Source: a virus
Length of the DNA: 64,000 nt
Strand: one strand, 5' to 3'
IMG/VR virus record: IMGVR_UViG_3300036886_000214
Location: 1-64,000 of that record
The notes below the pieces were generated by a model that was not told the DNA's origin, did not search any database, and saw only the letters and a list, made by a program, of their open reading frames with translations. Below, piece by piece: positions 10,306-55,611 of the stretch. Each line of letters opens with the position of its first letter. The stretch's first letter is position 1. The translations under genes were made by a program, and so were the position numbers.

Positions 10306-10379
10306 TGTCCCATAGCTCAACGGTAGAGCAAGCGACCGATAATCGTTAGATGATAGTTCGATTCTATCTGGGACAACCA
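10306..10379 (+). tRNA. tRNA-Ile (GAT)
   Basis: Full cloverleaf: acceptor TGTCCCA/TGGGACA, D-arm GCTC/GAGC, anticodon arm AGCGA/TCGTT with loop CCGATAA (anticodon GAT at 10338-10340), T-arm GATAG/CTATC with loop TTCGATT, encoded CCA. Position 33 is C instead of the near-universal T, which may weaken function. Confidence 0.8.
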
Positions 10380-10382
10380 ATT

Positions 10383-10457
10383 TGTGGCGTAGCTCAATGG
10401 TAGAGCGAGCGGCTCATAACTGCTGGGTTCTTGGTTCGATTCCAAGCGTCACAACCA
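10383..10457 (+). tRNA. tRNA with CAT anticodon (Met or Ile2)
   Basis: Acceptor TGTGGCG/CGTCACA, D-arm GCTC/GAGC, anticodon arm AGCGG/CTGCT with loop CTCATAA, T-arm CTTGG/CCAAG with loop TTCGATT, encoded CCA. Elongator Met and lysidine-modified Ile2 cannot be separated by eye; the first acceptor pair is T-A, so an initiator with a mismatched 1-72 pair is unlikely. Confidence 0.85.
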
Positions 10458-10461
10458 TTTA

Positions 10462-10535
10462 TGTTGAACGTAGCTTAATTTTAAAGCCGAAGTGTTGTAG
10501 CATCGAGATACGGGTGCAAGTCCTGTCGTTCAGCA
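10462..10535 (+). ncRNA. tRNA-like RNA with extended acceptor, no CCA
   Basis: Ends pair over 9 bp (TGTTGAACG/CGTTCAGCA). D-arm GCTT/AAGC and T-arm ACGGG/CCTGT with loop TGCAAGT are clear. The anticodon region (CGAAGTGTTGTAGCATCG) does not make a standard 5-bp stem, although TTGTA would give a Thr TGT anticodon. No CCA; a T-tract follows. It resembles the RNA at 55312-55376, which has the same T-loop. Could be a decayed tRNA or a tRNA mimic. Confidence 0.5.
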
Positions 10536-10544
10536 CTTTTTTAT

Positions 10545-10666
10545 GGGAACGCGTAAAAGACATAAGACCTTGAACCAATGGGCGTATCCCGGTTCCCTCT
10601 TATGGTAATTACGATCTGATTCTAGATGATGAACGCTCTAGTGAAAACCTAGGGCCGTTCCCACCA
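10545..10666 (+). ncRNA. 122-nt tRNA-like RNA ending in CCA
   Basis: The ends pair perfectly (GGGAACG at 10545-10551 with CGTTCCC at 10656-10662) and are followed by ACCA, like a tRNA acceptor. A T-arm-like hairpin (CTCTAG/CTAGGG, loop TGAAAAC) sits just before the 3' strand. Between them is a long hairpin, 10561-10604, with outer stem CATAAGA/TCTTATG and inner GAACC/GGTTC. This is far too long for a standard tRNA. Options are an intron-containing or insertion-bearing tRNA, or a novel tRNA-like RNA. Confidence 0.45.
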
Positions 10667-10683
10667 TTTTATAAGGGGCGTTT

Positions 10684-11016
10684 ATGAAACTAGATAAATT
10701 TCATTGGCACGAAGCCATGGATAGGGTTTCGGTTGTTCAAGGAATTATTGAGCATACCTTGTCTTATCATGCGGTTTTTATAGAGAATCCAGCACTTGAG
10801 AGCAGGGTTGAAGCTATTCATGTATCGTTTCACGATTTGATTCAAGAGATTGCAGAATTAAAAGAGGCTTATAAATTTGAAGAAGAAGAAATAGAACATA
10901 CTGTTGGTTCAGGAAATTTTTTTAAAGACTTGGGCTTCGATAATCCTGAAGAAGAACAAAAAAAGGCAGATGAGGAGTTGGCCAAATTTAGAGTTGAGCT
11001 GTTAGAACAAAAATGA
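10684..11016 (+). CDS. Phage protein with HigA-like C-terminal tail
   Basis: 110 residues. Residues 1-65 (begins MKLDKFHWHEAMDRVSVVQ) resemble a common small phage helical protein. The tail (GSGNFFKDLGFDNPEEEQKK) resembles the opening segment of HigA-type XRE antitoxins, but the HTH that should follow is absent. It looks like a fusion or a truncated antitoxin remnant. RBS AAGGGG. ATGA overlap with the next gene. Confidence 0.6.
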   Translation: MKLDKFHWHEAMDRVSVVQGIIEHTLSYHAVFIENPALESRVEAIHVSFHDLIQEIAELKEAYKFEEEEIEHTVGSGNFFKDLGFDNPEEEQKKADEELAKFRVELLEQK

Positions 11017-11609
11017 CCAAAATCCACACCGACCATTGGATAGACGCACAAGTATTGACAAAGCGTCATCCATCAACCTTTTCAGCCCCTTCCCTTGAAG
11101 AGTTGGAAATGCTTTCTGTGGGTGATATTGCTAAGGTTGCTCGCGGAGATAATGAATTTAATGGAATTCGTTTTTGGACGGTCATTACCGAGATAGATGG
11201 CGATGAAATTATTGCCGAAGTAAATAATGATATTAAAGAATATCGATTTCAATATAACGCTGGGGATAAAGTCGCTTATCAAAAAAGGCATATTTACGCT
11301 TGTTATGAAAAATGGTTTATTGAAGATTATTTACGAGTCCCTCTAGCCCGAATTTACCAAAAGATTTGCTTGGGGTGTAATCAGATAGCCACCATTCAAT
11401 CTAAGAGAGAGATTCAATATTTCGAATATGATGTAGACAACAATATAAAAATGAAAGTTAGTTATCTGGAGTGCGATAATTGTAAGGAACAGTATGCTGA
11501 CCCTGAATTTGATTTTGAGAAGTATAAGAAACTGGCTGTCGAAGAATTAGAACAAAAGCTTAAAGCTGATCAAGAATTATTAGATAAGCTCAAAGATAAA
11601 CTACAATAA
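11013..11609 (+). CDS. Two-part protein with CxxC zinc pairs
   Basis: 198 residues. Residues about 26-90 (LEELEMLSVGDIAKVARGDN then RFWTVITEIDGDEIIAEVNN) resemble a DUF2314-like small beta barrel. Residues about 118-155 hold CLGC and CDNC, a probable zinc ribbon. The end is a Lys/Leu/Glu coiled coil. Function unknown. Located between a HigA-tail protein and CsrA. Confidence 0.6.
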   Translation: MTKIHTDHWIDAQVLTKRHPSTFSAPSLEELEMLSVGDIAKVARGDNEFNGIRFWTVITEIDGDEIIAEVNNDIKEYRFQYNAGDKVAYQKRHIYACYEKWFIEDYLRVPLARIYQKICLGCNQIATIQSKREIQYFEYDVDNNIKMKVSYLECDNCKEQYADPEFDFEKYKKLAVEELEQKLKADQELLDKLKDKLQ

Positions 11610-11630
11610 TAATTTAACCGGATAAATCAC

Positions 11631-11834
11631 ATGCTCATTCTAAACCGGGAGGTTGGACAATCCATTATTATTGATGGGGAAATTATTATTAAGGTTTTAA
11701 GCCTGTTTCCAAAATACGTTAGGATTGGCATTCAAGCACCCTCTCATATCAATATCATCCGGGATGAGGTTTTGAACAAGAGGCTCTGGATACCTCGTTA
11801 TTTGACAAACCAAGAAGATTCGGGTAAGATTTAA
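11631..11834 (+). CDS. csrA: CsrA-family RNA-binding regulator
   Basis: 67 residues, close to the normal CsrA length. MLILNREVG opens like CsrA MLILTRRVG. The core KYVRIGIQAP and the IIRDEV segment align with NQVRIGVNAP and VHREEI. The key RNA-contact residues Leu4, Arg6 and Arg44 are present, while Arg7 is Glu and the residues before Arg44 are Ile-Ile. CsrA dimers bind GGA in hairpin loops and usually block ribosome binding. The C-terminal helix region diverges. A phage-borne paralogue could retune host metabolism or phage late genes. Confidence 0.9.
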   Translation: MLILNREVGQSIIIDGEIIIKVLSLFPKYVRIGIQAPSHINIIRDEVLNKRLWIPRYLTNQEDSGKI

Positions 11835-11874
11835 ATTCTAGTCTCTGTACTAGTCATTCGAAACTCTGTTGATA

Positions 11875-11905
11875 TCCCGAGCCTAAAAAACTTGGGATTT
11901 TTTTT
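11875..11905 (+). terminator. Rho-independent terminator after csrA
   Basis: TCCCGAG/CTTGGGA stem (7 bp with one G-T pair) followed by eight T residues. Ends transcription from the csrA side, facing the minus-strand tRNA-Asn. Confidence 0.75.
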
Positions 11906-11908
11906 AAC

Positions 11909-11983
<75 letters not shown>

Positions 11984-12018
11984 ATAAAATAAATTTTAGC
12001 ATAGATTAATATTACCCC

Positions 12019-12046
12019 TTGACATATTTTCCTACGTTCGTATAAT
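12019..12046 (+). promoter_or_regulatory. Near-consensus promoter of parA
   Basis: TTGACA at 12019-12024, 16-base spacer, TATAAT at 12041-12046: perfect boxes. The spacer and -10 lie inside the left arm of the long inverted repeat, so a protein bound there would block transcription. Confidence 0.8.
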
Positions 12047-12075
12047 AATATTTTAATACGAACGTAGGAAAATAT
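12024..12075. repeat. Perfect 20-bp inverted repeat before parA (operator/centromere candidate)
   Basis: Left arm ATATTTTCCTACGTTCGTAT (12024-12043) and an exact complementary right arm (12056-12075) flank a 12-base AT-rich centre. The right arm ends directly at the parA ATG. The layout fits autorepression by the small partner protein, and the repeat could double as the partition site. Confidence 0.75.
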
Positions 12076-12729
12076 ATGAAAAGACAACAGAGAATCATTT
12101 CCCTTCTCAATCAGAAAGGTGGGGTGGGAAAATCAACGAATGCCATTAATATCGCATGTGGATTAGAGCAGAGAGGCAAAAAAGTAGCGATCATCGATGC
12201 TGACATTCAAGGGACCGCCTTAAAATGGCAAACGAAAGCATCTGAAAATCATGAATCACACCCTGTAGTTCACGGAATGACTGATATTGCCATTGAGCGA
12301 CAAATTAAAACACTTGATCCGGATATTGAATTTATTATAATTGATGGGTCACCAAGGGTTAACCAACTTACTACGAAAATAATTATCTTATCTGACTTAG
12401 TTTTAATTCCTGTGAGGCCCAGCCCAATAGATGTTTGGGCTACTGATGATATAGTGAGCATAGTAAAAGAAAGAAGGCTTGTAACGGATGGATTTCCAAA
12501 ATGCTCATTCTTGCTTTGTTGTGTTGTAAAAAATACTGTCTTATCAGAAAGCACAAAGCAAACTCTAGATGTGTTAGAAATCCCGCTTTTAGAAAGCTAT
12601 ACAACACAAAGACAAGCCTATATGCAGTGCTTAGATAAAGGGAAAAATATTTATTCTGATTTAAAAAATAGAAACTCAGCAAACGAAGTAGATTCAATCA
12701 TTAATGAAATCCTGGAGAAATATTTATGA
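12076..12729 (+). CDS. parA: ParA-type partition ATPase
   Basis: 217 residues, the size of small type Ib ParA/ParF proteins without an N-terminal HTH. Deviant Walker A KGGVGKST (residues 14-21), then [14 protein letters not shown] (about 38-51) and Walker B FIIIDGSP. These ATPases form nucleoid-bound gradients that segregate plasmids. The gene sits directly behind a perfect inverted repeat and is followed by a small basic partner gene with ATGA overlap, as in plasmid par operons. Start at the ATG at 12076 after AGGA. Confidence 0.88.
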
Positions 12730-12905
12730 GTAGACCCATGAACAAAGAACATCTGGCCGCTTTAAAGGAAGCAAGAAAAGAGCCGTCTAAGGGAACCCAT
12801 TTCGACGATATTCCCTTAAGGCTTTTAAAGAAGCTGAGGCTTCACTTAGCAGAGACAGGCCAGAAAAAACGTGAATGGTTGATAGAGTTACTTGACAAGC
12901 TTTAA
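12726..12905 (+). CDS. Small ParB-like partner (probable ribbon-helix-helix)
   Basis: 59 residues, basic. The C-terminal half ([20 protein letters not shown] then [10 protein letters not shown]) fits a ribbon-helix-helix DNA-binding unit. Such small RHH proteins are the usual centromere-binding partners of type Ib ParA and repress the par promoter. ATGA overlap with parA. Confidence 0.6.
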
Positions 12906-12961
12906 AGCATATTATAATATGAAAATATATTGCTAGGAACCTATGTAAATATTTACATAGG
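12892..12961 (+). promoter_or_regulatory. Promoter and perfect 22-bp palindrome
   Basis: TTGACA (12892-12897), 15-base spacer, TATAAT (12913-12918), then a perfect palindrome of half-site CCTATGTAAAT at 12940-12961. The palindrome lies between the promoter and the gene at 12976 and can act as an operator or form a hairpin in the leader. Confidence 0.6.
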
Positions 12962-12975
12962 AAAGGAGGGGAAAC

Positions 12976-13116
12976 ATGCAACTACAATGGGGCGATGCAA
13001 GTAACGAGGCAGCAATGGTCCTTAGCCACAATGAGGCTGGGCGGTTGATATGGCGTGAGCAAACAGAGGTAGAGAGGCTGGTTCAGGAAATGCTTGAGGA
13101 TGGTGACTTGGAATAG
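12976..13116 (+). CDS. Small hypothetical acidic protein
   Basis: 46 residues with a very strong ribosome site (AAAGGAGGGG). Acidic C-terminus (VQEMLEDGDLE). Its own promoter and operator-like palindrome suggest a tightly regulated product, for example an antitoxin or antirepressor, but there is no family match. Confidence 0.6.
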   Translation: MQLQWGDASNEAAMVLSHNEAGRLIWREQTEVERLVQEMLEDGDLE

Positions 13117-13274
13117 TTGCGACAGTGTCGCAAGAATTGGTATACGCATTCTTTGTTAACTAACATTTGTGGAACGCGTGGAACATTAAAGGTGTTTGCT
13201 TGTAGAACTGGCCTTTCCACGTGGAACATTATGGGTCTGTGTAGTAAGTACACACCCCGTGTTACTATGAAGCC
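13117..13274. promoter_or_regulatory. Intergenic region with several palindromes, parS-like core
   Basis: Contains TTGCGACA/TGTCGCAA (13117-13133), three copies of GTGGAAC (13169, 13178, 13221; two extended to GTGGAACATT), the palindrome TTCCACGTGGAA (13215-13226), and TGTGTA/TACACA (13238-13254). TTCCACGTGGAA shares the CACGTG core of chromosomal parS (TGTTTCACGTGAAACA). Dense symmetry next to par genes suggests a partition or replication control site. Confidence 0.5.
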
Positions 13275-13898
13275 ATGCTTACACAATATTCATCTTATAA
13301 AAAGCGAAAGAGACCAAATAGAGAGCAAGCCTTTTTTGAAAAGATTGCGAATCACATAAAAAAAGTTTTAAAAGATGGTAACGTTGCACGGCTTGTCGCA
13401 GACCAACAAAAATACAACATTGAGAAGCTTACTCTTAAAGTAGCTATCGAAAAAGACCGAAGTTCCATTCTATATCGCGTAATAGTAAGCTGCAAATCGT
13501 CAGACTCCTTAGATTGGCTGATTAAAAATATGTGGGTTAGTAGCTTCAGGGATGAAACTAAAAAACGTGATTATAGTGTGATAGATAGCTTATTGCTGCG
13601 CTTAGCCCAGATAGAATGGGATAAAGAACAAACCCCTGAAGAAAAAAACGAAAATTTTAAATTCCAAGCTTCGGCTGTCGAAAAAATCTATTTAATTCTA
13701 ACAAAAGTTCCAGAAATGGAAGAATATTTAGAATTACAACTAAAACTTCCTTATGCCAAAGATTTTTGGGAGTTTCATCGCTCTAAAGGCGAATTATCCT
13801 GCCTCGAGCACGAATCAGCAACAGTGGTCCGCATGGCTATAAATCTTTTTCATGCTAAGATAGAATCTTTAAAATCCTCTCGTAGCTCAGTCCAATAG
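13275..13898 (+). CDS. Hypothetical protein overlapping tRNA-Phe
   Basis: 207 residues, mostly helical and charged, no recognised domain. Its last codons lie inside the tRNA-Phe gene that starts at 13876, which is unusual and suggests the tRNA was inserted into, or evolved over, the 3' end. The position after a palindrome-rich region is compatible with a replication or copy-control role, but nothing in the sequence proves that. Confidence 0.55.
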   Translation: MLTQYSSYKKRKRPNREQAFFEKIANHIKKVLKDGNVARLVADQQKYNIEKLTLKVAIEKDRSSILYRVIVSCKSSDSLDWLIKNMWVSSFRDETKKRDYSVIDSLLLRLAQIEWDKEQTPEEKNENFKFQASAVEKIYLILTKVPEMEEYLELQLKLPYAKDFWEFHRSKGELSCLEHESATVVRMAINLFHAKIESLKSSRSSVQ

Positions 13899-13952
13899 AG
13901 CGACAGATTGAAGCTCTGTGCGTCATTGGTGCGAATCCATCCGGGAGGGCCA
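13876..13952 (+). tRNA. tRNA-Phe (GAA), divergent T-arm
   Basis: Acceptor CCTCTCG/CGGGAGG, D-arm GCTC/GAGC, anticodon arm ACAGA/TCTGT with loop TTGAAGC (GAA), encoded CCA. The T-stem has mismatches at its outer end and the loop is TGCGAAT, with G at position 55 instead of T. Confidence 0.8.
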
Positions 13953-13953
13953 T

Positions 13954-14029
13954 GCTCGTATAGCTCAGTTGGTAGAGCGTCAGTTTTGTAATCTGAATGT
14001 CGAGAGTTCGATTCTTTCTGCGAGCACCA
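13954..14029 (+). tRNA. tRNA-Thr (TGT)
   Basis: Acceptor GCTCGTA/TGCGAGC, D-arm GCTC/GAGC, anticodon loop TTTGTAA (TGT), T-loop TTCGATT, encoded CCA. One mismatch at the base of the anticodon stem. Confidence 0.88.
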
Positions 14030-52634: not shown

Positions 52635-53041
52635 ATGGATACTCCGTTAAAGTTAAAAAATGGTTGCCTGCGTAGGGAAGCCTAGAAAGTTCCGACCTTA
52701 ATATACAAACTTAACTTGTCCTAGGACATTCGTTTAGCTGTCTTGACCCTTGATTCTAAAAACTTTCTAAAATTAATACTTACTTACGTAAATCTTGCTT
52801 TCTTGAGTCTTAAGGGTTTTTCACCGTGACCGGGTGTTTGTTGAAATAGTGGGATTTGAACCCACGTCTTCCGGCTTAAGAGGCCAGCGAGCTAACCAGA
52901 CTGCTCTATATTTCAGTTATCAGCTTTCAAGGCTGTTGCAGATTTAAAGTCCCTGCCGACCGTATATTTCCTCGGTTTTATCTCCTAGCATCAACCGATT
53001 TCATGCTATCATTAGGATAATTGATAAGCAAGGAAGGATTC
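52635..53041. other. Intergenic region with tRNA-Lys and a palindrome
   Basis: Besides tRNA-Lys this stretch holds a perfect palindrome TGTCCTAGGACA (52717-52728), a possible operator for the divergent unit at 52634. No ORF is supported. Confidence 0.4.
52841..52915 (-). tRNA. tRNA-Lys (CTT)
   Basis: Minus strand: acceptor TGAAATA/TATTTCA, D-arm GAGC/GCTC, anticodon arm CTGGC/GCCGG with loop CTCTTAA (CTT), T-loop TTCAAAT. CCA is not encoded (ACAA follows). Confidence 0.88.
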
Positions 53042-53731: not shown

Positions 53732-54592
53732 ATGCGATTGGCTTGGCTCACAGACATTCATTTGAACTTTTTAAACTATGCTCAAAGAACAGCTTTCTAC
53801 GATTTGATTCTGGAAAAAAATCCAGAGGCCATTTTAATTACGGGTGATATATCTGAAGCGCCAAAATTGAATGATGTTTTAGAAGAAATGGGTGATTACT
53901 TAAATGTTGGTATAAATAAAACTGGATATCATCGGCCTATTTATTTTGTCCTAGGAAATCACGATTTTTATCACAGCAGCATTAAGAGCGTGCGTGAAAA
54001 TATAATAGAAATAGCGGGCGGTTATCTTAAATATTTAAGAGATTCTTTGCCAGTTTATCTCACAAAATCTACAAGTCTAATAGGTATTGATTGCTTTGCT
54101 GACGGACGAGCAGGGAATTATCACACCACTAGAATCAGAATGAATGACCACAGTTTTATTGAAGAATTTAATCATGCGCGTATTTGTTCTAATAACGATT
54201 TACTAAAAGAAATGCAGGAACAATCTGAGGGTGATAATGCTGAGTTACTTTTAACAATGTATGCATTAAAACAAGGGGAAATGCCGAAAAATTTAATCAT
54301 TATGATGCACGTCCCACCCTTTGAAGAATGTTGTTTATATGGCAACAAGAAAAGCGACGCAGATTTCTTGCCCTTCTATTGCTCCGTAAAAACAGGGGAA
54401 ATACTTTTATCTATTGCAGAAAAACATCCTGAGACTAATTTCCTAGTCCTTTGCGGCCATACTCATAGCAAAGCGATTTATCAGCCCCTTCCAAATTTAA
54501 CCGTTAGGGTTGGTGAAGCTGAATATACAGAACCCAGGATTAATATGCTAGAAATTAAAGAAGATGGGGCAATAGTTTTCGACGATGAATAA
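53732..54592 (+). CDS. Calcineurin-like metallophosphoesterase
   Basis: 286 residues. Full metal-site motif set: TDIH (7-10), GDIS (38-41), GNHD (75-78), HVPP (193-196) and GHTH (242-245). These di-metal enzymes hydrolyse phosphomono- or diesters, including 2',3'-cyclic phosphates in some RNA repair systems; the substrate here is unknown. The stop overlaps the KptA start by 8 bases, so the two are translationally coupled and probably act together. Confidence 0.88.
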   Translation: MRLAWLTDIHLNFLNYAQRTAFYDLILEKNPEAILITGDISEAPKLNDVLEEMGDYLNVGINKTGYHRPIYFVLGNHDFYHSSIKSVRENIIEIAGGYLKYLRDSLPVYLTKSTSLIGIDCFADGRAGNYHTTRIRMNDHSFIEEFNHARICSNNDLLKEMQEQSEGDNAELLLTMYALKQGEMPKNLIIMMHVPPFEECCLYGNKKSDADFLPFYCSVKTGEILLSIAEKHPETNFLVLCGHTHSKAIYQPLPNLTVRVGEAEYTEPRINMLEIKEDGAIVFDDE

Positions 54593-55109
54593 AAAAGATG
54601 CTTCTAAAAAACTGTGTTGGTTGCTGCGTCATGCGCAACCTCTTTCGAAAGAAATTGACTCAGAAGGGTTTGTTTCAATTGCAAAACTTATAGAAATTTC
54701 AGAAATAACTTTAGAGCAAATAGACTCGATCGTCGAAGAAGACAAGAAAAATCGATATGAAATTAGAGGGGACCAAATTCGCGCTCGCTATGGACACAAT
54801 AAAGATTTTGATATTGTAAAGGTTTCAGCAAACCCGCCTCCTACAATATTCCACGGAACATCAAATGAAAATCTCGGAAATATTTTAAACTTTGGCTTGA
54901 TTCCCGGAGAAAGACGCCATGTTCACTTAACTACGCTTCGTCAATCTGCTTTAGAGGCCGGAAAAAGAAAATCAAAAATACCCATTATTCTCACGATCGA
55001 TTCAGAAAAAGCCTTTGAAAATGGAATTAGTTTCTATGAAGAAGAGGATTTTGTCTGGTTAGCTGATTACATCGCATCAAAATATATCATTGGAATATCA
55101 ACGTTTTAA
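54585..55109 (+). CDS. kptA: RNA 2'-phosphotransferase, KptA/Tpt1 family
   Basis: 174 residues, full family length. LRHAQP (14-19), EGFVSIAKL (27-35), KKNRYEI (54-60), IRARYGH (65-71), FHGT (89-92), RRHVHLTT (110-117) and FVWLAD (156-161) follow the Tpt1/KptA order. The family uses NAD+ to remove an internal RNA 2'-phosphate left by healing-and-sealing ligases. Some members also ADP-ribosylate nucleic acid ends. It sits 13 bases before a set of tRNA and tRNA-like genes and is overlapped with a phosphoesterase, which suggests RNA repair or tRNA maturation. Confidence 0.88.
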   Translation: MNKKDASKKLCWLLRHAQPLSKEIDSEGFVSIAKLIEISEITLEQIDSIVEEDKKNRYEIRGDQIRARYGHNKDFDIVKVSANPPPTIFHGTSNENLGNILNFGLIPGERRHVHLTTLRQSALEAGKRKSKIPIILTIDSEKAFENGISFYEEEDFVWLADYIASKYIIGISTF

Positions 55110-55122
55110 TATATAATAATAT

Positions 55123-55192
55123 GTGGCATCCCGTAGAATCCAATTCTATTGGTATTGACCCAATCTACCTCGGTGAGAGCCGGGGGTGCCGC
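55123..55192 (+). ncRNA. tRNA-like RNA, possible degenerate tRNA-Gln (TTG)
   Basis: Acceptor-like GTGGCAT/GTGCCGC (7 bp with two G-T), a hairpin TAGAAT/ATTCTA in the D-arm place, an anticodon-like arm ATTGG/CCAAT with loop TATTGAC (TTG), and a T-arm-like CCTCGG/CCGGGG. U33 and the TTC T-loop motif are missing and CCA is not encoded. Confidence 0.4.
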
Positions 55193-55194
55193 TT

Positions 55195-55278
55195 CGGTTT
55201 GTGGGTGATTGGATAAACCAGGAGACTGTAAATCTCCCGCCTCTGGCTTACTTGGTTCGATTCCAGGCTGACCGACCA
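55195..55278 (+). tRNA. tRNA-Tyr (GTA)
   Basis: Acceptor CGGTTTG/CTGACCG (one T-T mismatch), anticodon arm GGAGA/TCTCC with loop CTGTAAA (GTA), long variable arm GCC/GGC as in bacterial tRNA-Tyr, T-arm CTTGG/CCAGG with loop TTCGATT, encoded CCA. Confidence 0.88.
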
Positions 55279-55284
55279 GTTTAT

Positions 55285-55382
55285 GACAGCTTTATCCTGC
55301 TAATAACAGGAGACCAGTACCTCAATTAGTAGAGTACCGTTTATCGGGAGGCTGCGGGTGCAAGTCCCGTCTGGTTGCTGTC
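55285..55382 (+). ncRNA. 98-nt tRNA-like RNA with split acceptor helix
   Basis: Outer helix GACAGC/GCTGTC and inner helix GACCAG/CTGGTT are contiguous on the 3' side. On the 5' side they are separated by a hairpin that looks like an anticodon arm (TCCTG-CTAATAA-CAGGA). Inside lie a D-like CTC/GAG arm and a T-arm GCGGG/CCCGT with loop TGCAAGT, as in the RNA at 10462. No CCA. Not a standard tRNA. Confidence 0.4.
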
Positions 55383-55611
55383 ACTCCTTAATCACCAACT
55401 GCAATGCCTCTATAACTCCTCTAATTTCCTTTTTAGTAAGTGGTATTTTAATCATGGCATTCCCAACCTCTGGCGAGTTCGTCGCTTGGTAAGCTTTTAA
55501 TGCGTAACAAAGCTTATCCCCTACGAGACTATAATCTTTTGATGCAATTAAAAAGCCACGCGAACCGAATTCCACGCGAGTGGATTGGGGGGGTAATTGT
55601 CTGGACTTCAT
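55381..55611 (-). CDS. Small hypothetical protein
   Basis: 76 residues on the minus strand. Its stop codon touches the tRNA-like RNA end. No family recognised. Preceded by GAGGAAT. Confidence 0.5.
   Translation of the reverse strand: MKSRQLPPQSTRVEFGSRGFLIASKDYSLVGDKLCYALKAYQATNSPEVGNAMIKIPLTKKEIRGVIEALQLVIKE

Follow-up and report, generated by a model that had tools for sequence, protein, structure and literature searches.

A 64,000-nucleotide stretch of viral DNA (positions 1 to 64,000 of the IMG/VR record IMGVR_UViG_3300036886_000214; below, the window) encodes a calcineurin-like, class III metallophosphoesterase (MPE) whose gene overlaps by 8 bases, on the same strand, the gene of an RNA 2′-phosphotransferase of the KptA/Tpt1 family. 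A tRNA-Tyr gene lies downstream of the pair (Table 1). We found that relatives of this MPE recur beside nucleotidyltransferase genes, which links the family to toxins that are tRNA nucleotidyltransferases. This link is a new result and the part of our analysis most worth testing. As a tentative interpretation, which we rate somewhat short of an even chance, the cluster serves the phage as a cassette for tRNA maintenance, and probably for counter-defence, that combines two phosphate-removing enzymes of separate origins, with the MPE as a probable eraser of nucleotidyltransferase products.

In 23 of 80 cellular loci, the MPE gene is immediately downstream of two conserved genes. These match the PADLOC models PDC-M21A (winged-helix-like) and PDC-M21B (nucleotidyltransferase), here called M21A and M21B. 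The M21-linked MPEs of Legionellales are homologous to that of the window, with about 40-44% identity. M21B was found in 51 of 143 Legionellales genomes and, when the search began from M21B, an MPE gene or a remnant of one followed it in 24 of 28 strong Legionellales loci. The family also occurs next to other nucleotidyltransferases. In a Neptunochlamydia contig (L015), an MPE gene directly follows an AbiEi-AbiEii pair and overlaps AbiEii by 4 bp, while in L079 the overlap, again of 4 bp, is with an NTP_transf_8 gene, and the MPE gene of L089 follows a gene similar to the latter. Thus, three nucleotidyltransferase families (M21B, AbiEii and NTP_transf_8), from different phyla, have a downstream MPE in common.

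M21B carries the GG...DxD signature, and its structure model has MenT1 as the top PDB match (Z 13.6), with MenT3 next. All 21 M21B sequences compared have a Thr two residues ahead of the first Asp. We read this spacing as that of the MenT auto-phosphorylation site, by comparison with S78/D80 of MenT3 and T39/D41 of MenT1. MenT toxins lengthen tRNAs by adding nucleotides at the 3′ end (PMC10435456), and AbiEii is a MenT homologue (PMC11375011). RNase PH has been reported to relieve MenT3 toxicity in part (PMC7725324). There is also a precedent for an enzymatic antitoxin, namely a small alarmone hydrolase that is encoded beside the toxSAS toxin FaRel and destroys the product of the toxin (PMC11782079).

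Several arrangements within the family deserve mention. The M21A-M21B-MPE order forms a three-gene cassette in Legionellales (L016:4720-6807 and similar loci among L015-L094 and L097-L124). No PADLOC model matched the cassette MPE; the PADLOC models cover M21A and M21B. An alphaproteobacterial version (L021:4234-6550) is followed by a SIR2_2-like gene, a weak match below the cut-off, and by a short ORF matching AbiEii, an arrangement as in a defence island. In two phage loci (L003:5001-6630 and L007:5001-6769), the gene that comes after the MPE is exonuclease-like, carries a “DFEATC” motif and is close to a ParA gene. The exonuclease-like gene of L003 belongs to the Pfam family RNase_T.

M21A and M21B are absent from the window by tblastn, and M21B also by profile. 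AbiEii and AbiEi have no Pfam match among the 66 non-structural window ORFs covered by our domain scan. In the place next to the MPE, the phage has KptA instead.

The MPE itself has the motifs and the modelled fold of a class III enzyme. The DxH, GD, GNHD, H and GHxH motifs are invariant in 58 sequences of the family, and the corresponding residues of the window protein (D8, H10, D39, N76, H77, H193, H243 and H245) are all present. Among solved structures, its model (pLDDT 95) is closest to PptH, a phosphopantetheinyl hydrolase from M. tuberculosis, with Z 22.7 and an rmsd of 2.9 across 240 residues; aq_1956, GpdQ, Rv0805 and Mre11 come after it. PptH is a phosphodiesterase that is inactive on a monoester test substrate and undoes an addition made by a transferase (PMC8557913). 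The MPE and PptH are 12% identical, and a common substrate is unlikely. The likeness of the modelled fold suits the idea that a transferase writes and the MPE erases, without proving the substrate of the MPE. In a phylogenetic tree, the window MPE groups with proteobacterial MPEs that are mostly linked to M21.

The second gene encodes a clear member of the KptA/Tpt1 family, scoring 116.2 bits against a Pfam gathering threshold of 26 for PTS_2-RNA and aligning to CthTpt1 (6e3a) with an E-value of 1.2e-28. Like CthTpt1, RslTpt1, E. coli KptA and gp280 of phage G, it has the Arg-His-Arg-Arg tetrad (R15, H16, R66 and R110) and the HGT motif for NAD (positions 90-92). These residues are essential or contact NAD in CthTpt1 and its relatives (PMC6333775). 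Because both the tetrad and the motif are kept, we predict from the sequence that the window KptA is active. The non-essential Lys is replaced by Gln64 here. The protein differs from other KptA/Tpt1 proteins in its MPE partner, in its identity of at most about 41% to the nearest phage homologues and in scoring under the NCBIfam equivalog cut-offs. A search with the single protein found no close relatives in viral contigs. For viral KptA searches, an alignment of 12 sequences was too diverged to serve as a query, and smaller sets were usable.

Tpt1 removes the 2′-phosphate from splice junctions in fungi, and in E. coli the 2′-phosphouridine 47 of tRNA is erased by Tpt1/KptA homologues (PMC9095486). 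A role of phage KptA in RNA repair has already been proposed (PMC9503650, PMC7824862), and is therefore not new here.

A first-pass annotation of the window, made from the sequence alone, had called the overlapping gene pair, and the ORFs, the Pfam matches and the shared strand all agree with it. It took the two enzymes to be coupled, and it named a failure of the pair to recur in other genomes as grounds for giving up that idea. This refuting outcome is the one that our survey gave, since none of the other genomes examined has the pair. KptA is encoded in none of 8 viral records with the MPE and not within about 6 kb of any of the 80 cellular MPE loci; of 33 MPE-bearing genomes, 31 are without it altogether and 2 have it. 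Conversely, this MPE family occurs at none of 64 dereplicated viral kptA loci outside the window. The strong MPE matches in that survey come from L138, a locus retrieved for its MPE and outside the set of 64. Thus, none of the 64 viral kptA loci and none of 88 MPE loci shows a conserved MPE-KptA operon. Just two viral kptA loci, L183 and L213, have another calcineurin-like enzyme within 4 kb, and these two enzymes belong to different families. The coupling is accordingly a property of the window phage, in which the 8-base overlap suggests joint translation of mpe and kptA.

Surveyed alone, viral kptA shows some association with tRNA genes. A full tRNA count was made for 54 viral records; in 5 of them, kptA is at most 100 bp from a tRNA, where at most 1.0 would be expected (P 0.003). 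The direct neighbours of viral kptA include no recurrent Pfam family, and no metallophosphoesterase is among the families shown. They do include one Thg1 tRNA-His guanylyltransferase and two NUDIX proteins (alignment A5). In Bacillus phage G (L129:628-5338), kptA is situated in an NAD-salvage cluster, between genes for nicotinate phosphoribosyltransferase, nicotinate nucleotide adenylyltransferase and NAD synthetase.

The host of the window phage is likelier to be an alphaproteobacterium, judging by sequence matches, since terminase relatives are commoner in that class than in Gammaproteobacteria (40 of 385 against 4 of 369) and a portal search of 143 Legionellales gave a single weak match. 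No kptA was above the cut-off in these 143 Legionellales, and the gene occurs in 2 of 36 genomes of the order of G010 and in 9 of 289 Alphaproteobacteria. With KptA missing from most candidate hosts, the phage would probably supply its own.

According to our interpretation, the MPE and KptA would be expressed jointly with the phage tRNA-Tyr and would have tRNA as a common substrate. KptA would move a 2′-phosphate from RNA, most likely tRNA, onto NAD+, as expected of its family. The MPE would act as an eraser phosphodiesterase that strips nucleotidyltransferase additions from tRNA 3′ ends, or otherwise quenches the product. By carrying an eraser without the toxin, the phage would keep tRNAs chargeable during infection. 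We also consider a more specific version, which strikes us as rather doubtful, in which the MPE serves as an enzymatic antidote against tRNA nucleotidyltransferase toxins of the MenT/AbiEii type. In bacteria it would be the third gene of these systems, and the phage would have acquired it without the rest and combined it with KptA and a tRNA gene against tRNA-directed immunity. As an alternative within the MPE family, the enzyme might dephosphorylate an auto-phosphorylated toxin. We prefer an eraser because a phage would gain nothing from toxin dephosphorylation.

A number of observations weigh against an eraser cassette. The MPE family is away from nucleotidyltransferases in about 55 of the 80 cellular loci, and L260, the most PADLOC-like M21 locus, has no MPE nearby. 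M21 is no more than a candidate defence system, and just 2 of 289 Alphaproteobacteria, the class most likely to hold the host, have M21B. In the tree, a long branch with unstarred support leads to the window MPE, and enzymes with a class III fold act on a wide range of substrates. Since the pair was found in no other genome examined, its functional link rests on one overlap, and the substrates of both enzymes are ones that we infer. The kptA-tRNA excess fades with distance and is gone at 500 bp; because the 100-bp cut-off was picked after the data had been inspected, the enrichment lends only modest support.

A rival explanation is a chance abutment of unrelated cargo, that is, of a general phosphodiesterase and a KptA that acts on some other RNA 2′-phosphate, with a tRNA nearby by coincidence. 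In its favour, the pair has been seen once, the neighbours of viral kptA are diverse without a recurrent family, the base composition of mpe-kptA is like that of the surroundings, and the seven tRNAs that ARAGORN found in the window are dispersed across it. Moreover, promoter and terminator scans gave signals no higher than those of shuffled sequences. However, coincidence would leave unexplained the overlap and the joint translation it suggests, the recurrence of MPE relatives beside nucleotidyltransferases and the short-range enrichment of viral kptA beside tRNAs, and we regard it as doubtful. A different possibility is that the MPE acts on the product made by KptA. The genes overlap, KptA does generate the product concerned (PMC6333775), and it has been suggested that calcineurin-like enzymes carry out this step in the sirtuin-based RNA-repair sets of phages (PMC9503650). 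However, the absence of KptA from nearly all MPE-bearing genomes, and of the MPE from viral kptA loci outside the window, implies that this is not the general role of the MPE family, and such a function is quite unlikely.

The first-pass annotation proposed that the pair could repair tRNAs after their cleavage by anticodon nucleases of the host. In this model, the MPE would open a 2′,3′-cyclic phosphate, a ligase of the host or one not yet seen would seal the ends and KptA would clear the 2′-phosphate at the junction. It has been proposed that phage KptA cleans up the 2′-phosphates that metal-independent RNases leave behind, and that cyclic phosphates are resolved by calcineurin-like enzymes (PMC9503650, PMC7824862); the intact KptA tetrad fits with this proposal. 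The same annotation remarked that no ligase was visible. Our domain scan of the non-structural ORFs confirms this, having found no RNA ligase and likewise no polynucleotide kinase, 2H or macro domain. Thus, the window phage resembles the known phage RNA-repair sets (KptA, 2H, macro, RNA ligase; PMC9503650) in having KptA in a tRNA-encoding phage, but the other components were not found in the window, and neither were the ligase and kinase of a T4 Pnkp/Rnl1-type end-healing and ligation set. Given also that the MPE and KptA were never paired in other genomes examined, and that the recurrent MPE partners are nucleotidyltransferases and not ligases, we consider this kind of repair unlikely. These partners point to the products of tRNA-nucleotidyltransferase toxins as MPE substrates, a different class from cyclic or terminal phosphates. 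Adjacency is all that favours the maturation of unusual phage tRNAs, also suggested earlier. An action of KptA on tRNA ends fares better, being plausible in view of the literature and the modest tRNA enrichment, even though the pair with the MPE is not recurrent. The broader idea that phosphate enzymes maintain tRNAs is plausible.

Downstream of kptA, the first pass had described a tRNA-Tyr after 13 bases and two aberrant tRNA-like RNAs. The 13 bases separate the kptA stop codon from the first structured element, and the tRNA-Tyr begins after a gap of 85 bases. The structured element folds better on the plus strand than shuffled sequences do, although it has no Rfam tRNA match at E ≤ 5 and an exact pattern built from it had zero matches in viral contigs. 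The other RNA is tRNA-derived: judged by its sequence, it is a degenerate tRNA, and an inverted repeat, TGACAGC/GCTGTCA (55284-55383), encloses it. ARAGORN, run with introns and a relaxed score, predicted an intron-bearing tRNA at 55274-55378. We weighed this tRNA as a possible KptA substrate and discarded it because relaxed matches on both strands overlap and conflict. On the minus strand, the region around the degenerate tRNA (55283-55384) folds far better than shuffles (z -4.26), and this fold begins at the stop codon of a small minus-strand ORF (55381-55611).

Table 1 Features of the mpe-kptA locus, in window coordinates
Feature	Position	Strand	Evidence
Class III metallophosphoesterase (MPE) gene, 286 aa	53732-54592	+	Pfam PF00149 Metallophos, E 1.7e-13
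kptA/Tpt1 RNA 2′-phosphotransferase gene, 174 aa	54585-55109	+	PF01885 PTS_2-RNA, E 2.2e-33
Structured element, hairpins with terminal closing stem	55123-55192	+	z -3.0; no tRNA-model match
tRNA-Tyr(GTA), CCA encoded	55195-55278	+	ARAGORN; Rfam tRNA 43.2 bits
Degenerate tRNA, anticodon arm shortened	55311-55378	+	Rfam tRNA 28.4 bits (gathering 29), E 5.5e-4 within the 401 bases searched
tRNA-Lys(CTT), closest tRNA upstream of mpe-kptA	52840-52915	-	ARAGORN; 68.1 bits

The window is nearly the whole of its virus record, which has 64,444 bases and is classed as linear, and so may be a fragment. It includes phage packaging genes, an integrase and ParA. Among the products of its small non-structural ORFs are a YdaS-like protein and a regulator of the CsrA family (Pfam E 2e-16). 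The tRNAs for Ile, Met, Asn, Phe and Thr are at 10306-14029, away from the kptA cluster.

The substrates of KptA in bacteria and phages are a long-standing riddle, and how cells reverse the extension of tRNA 3′ ends by MenT and AbiEii is a largely open question. The recurrent order of a nucleotidyltransferase gene followed by an MPE gene, in three families, names a candidate eraser. In the window phage, this candidate eraser travels without a toxin, next to KptA and tRNAs.
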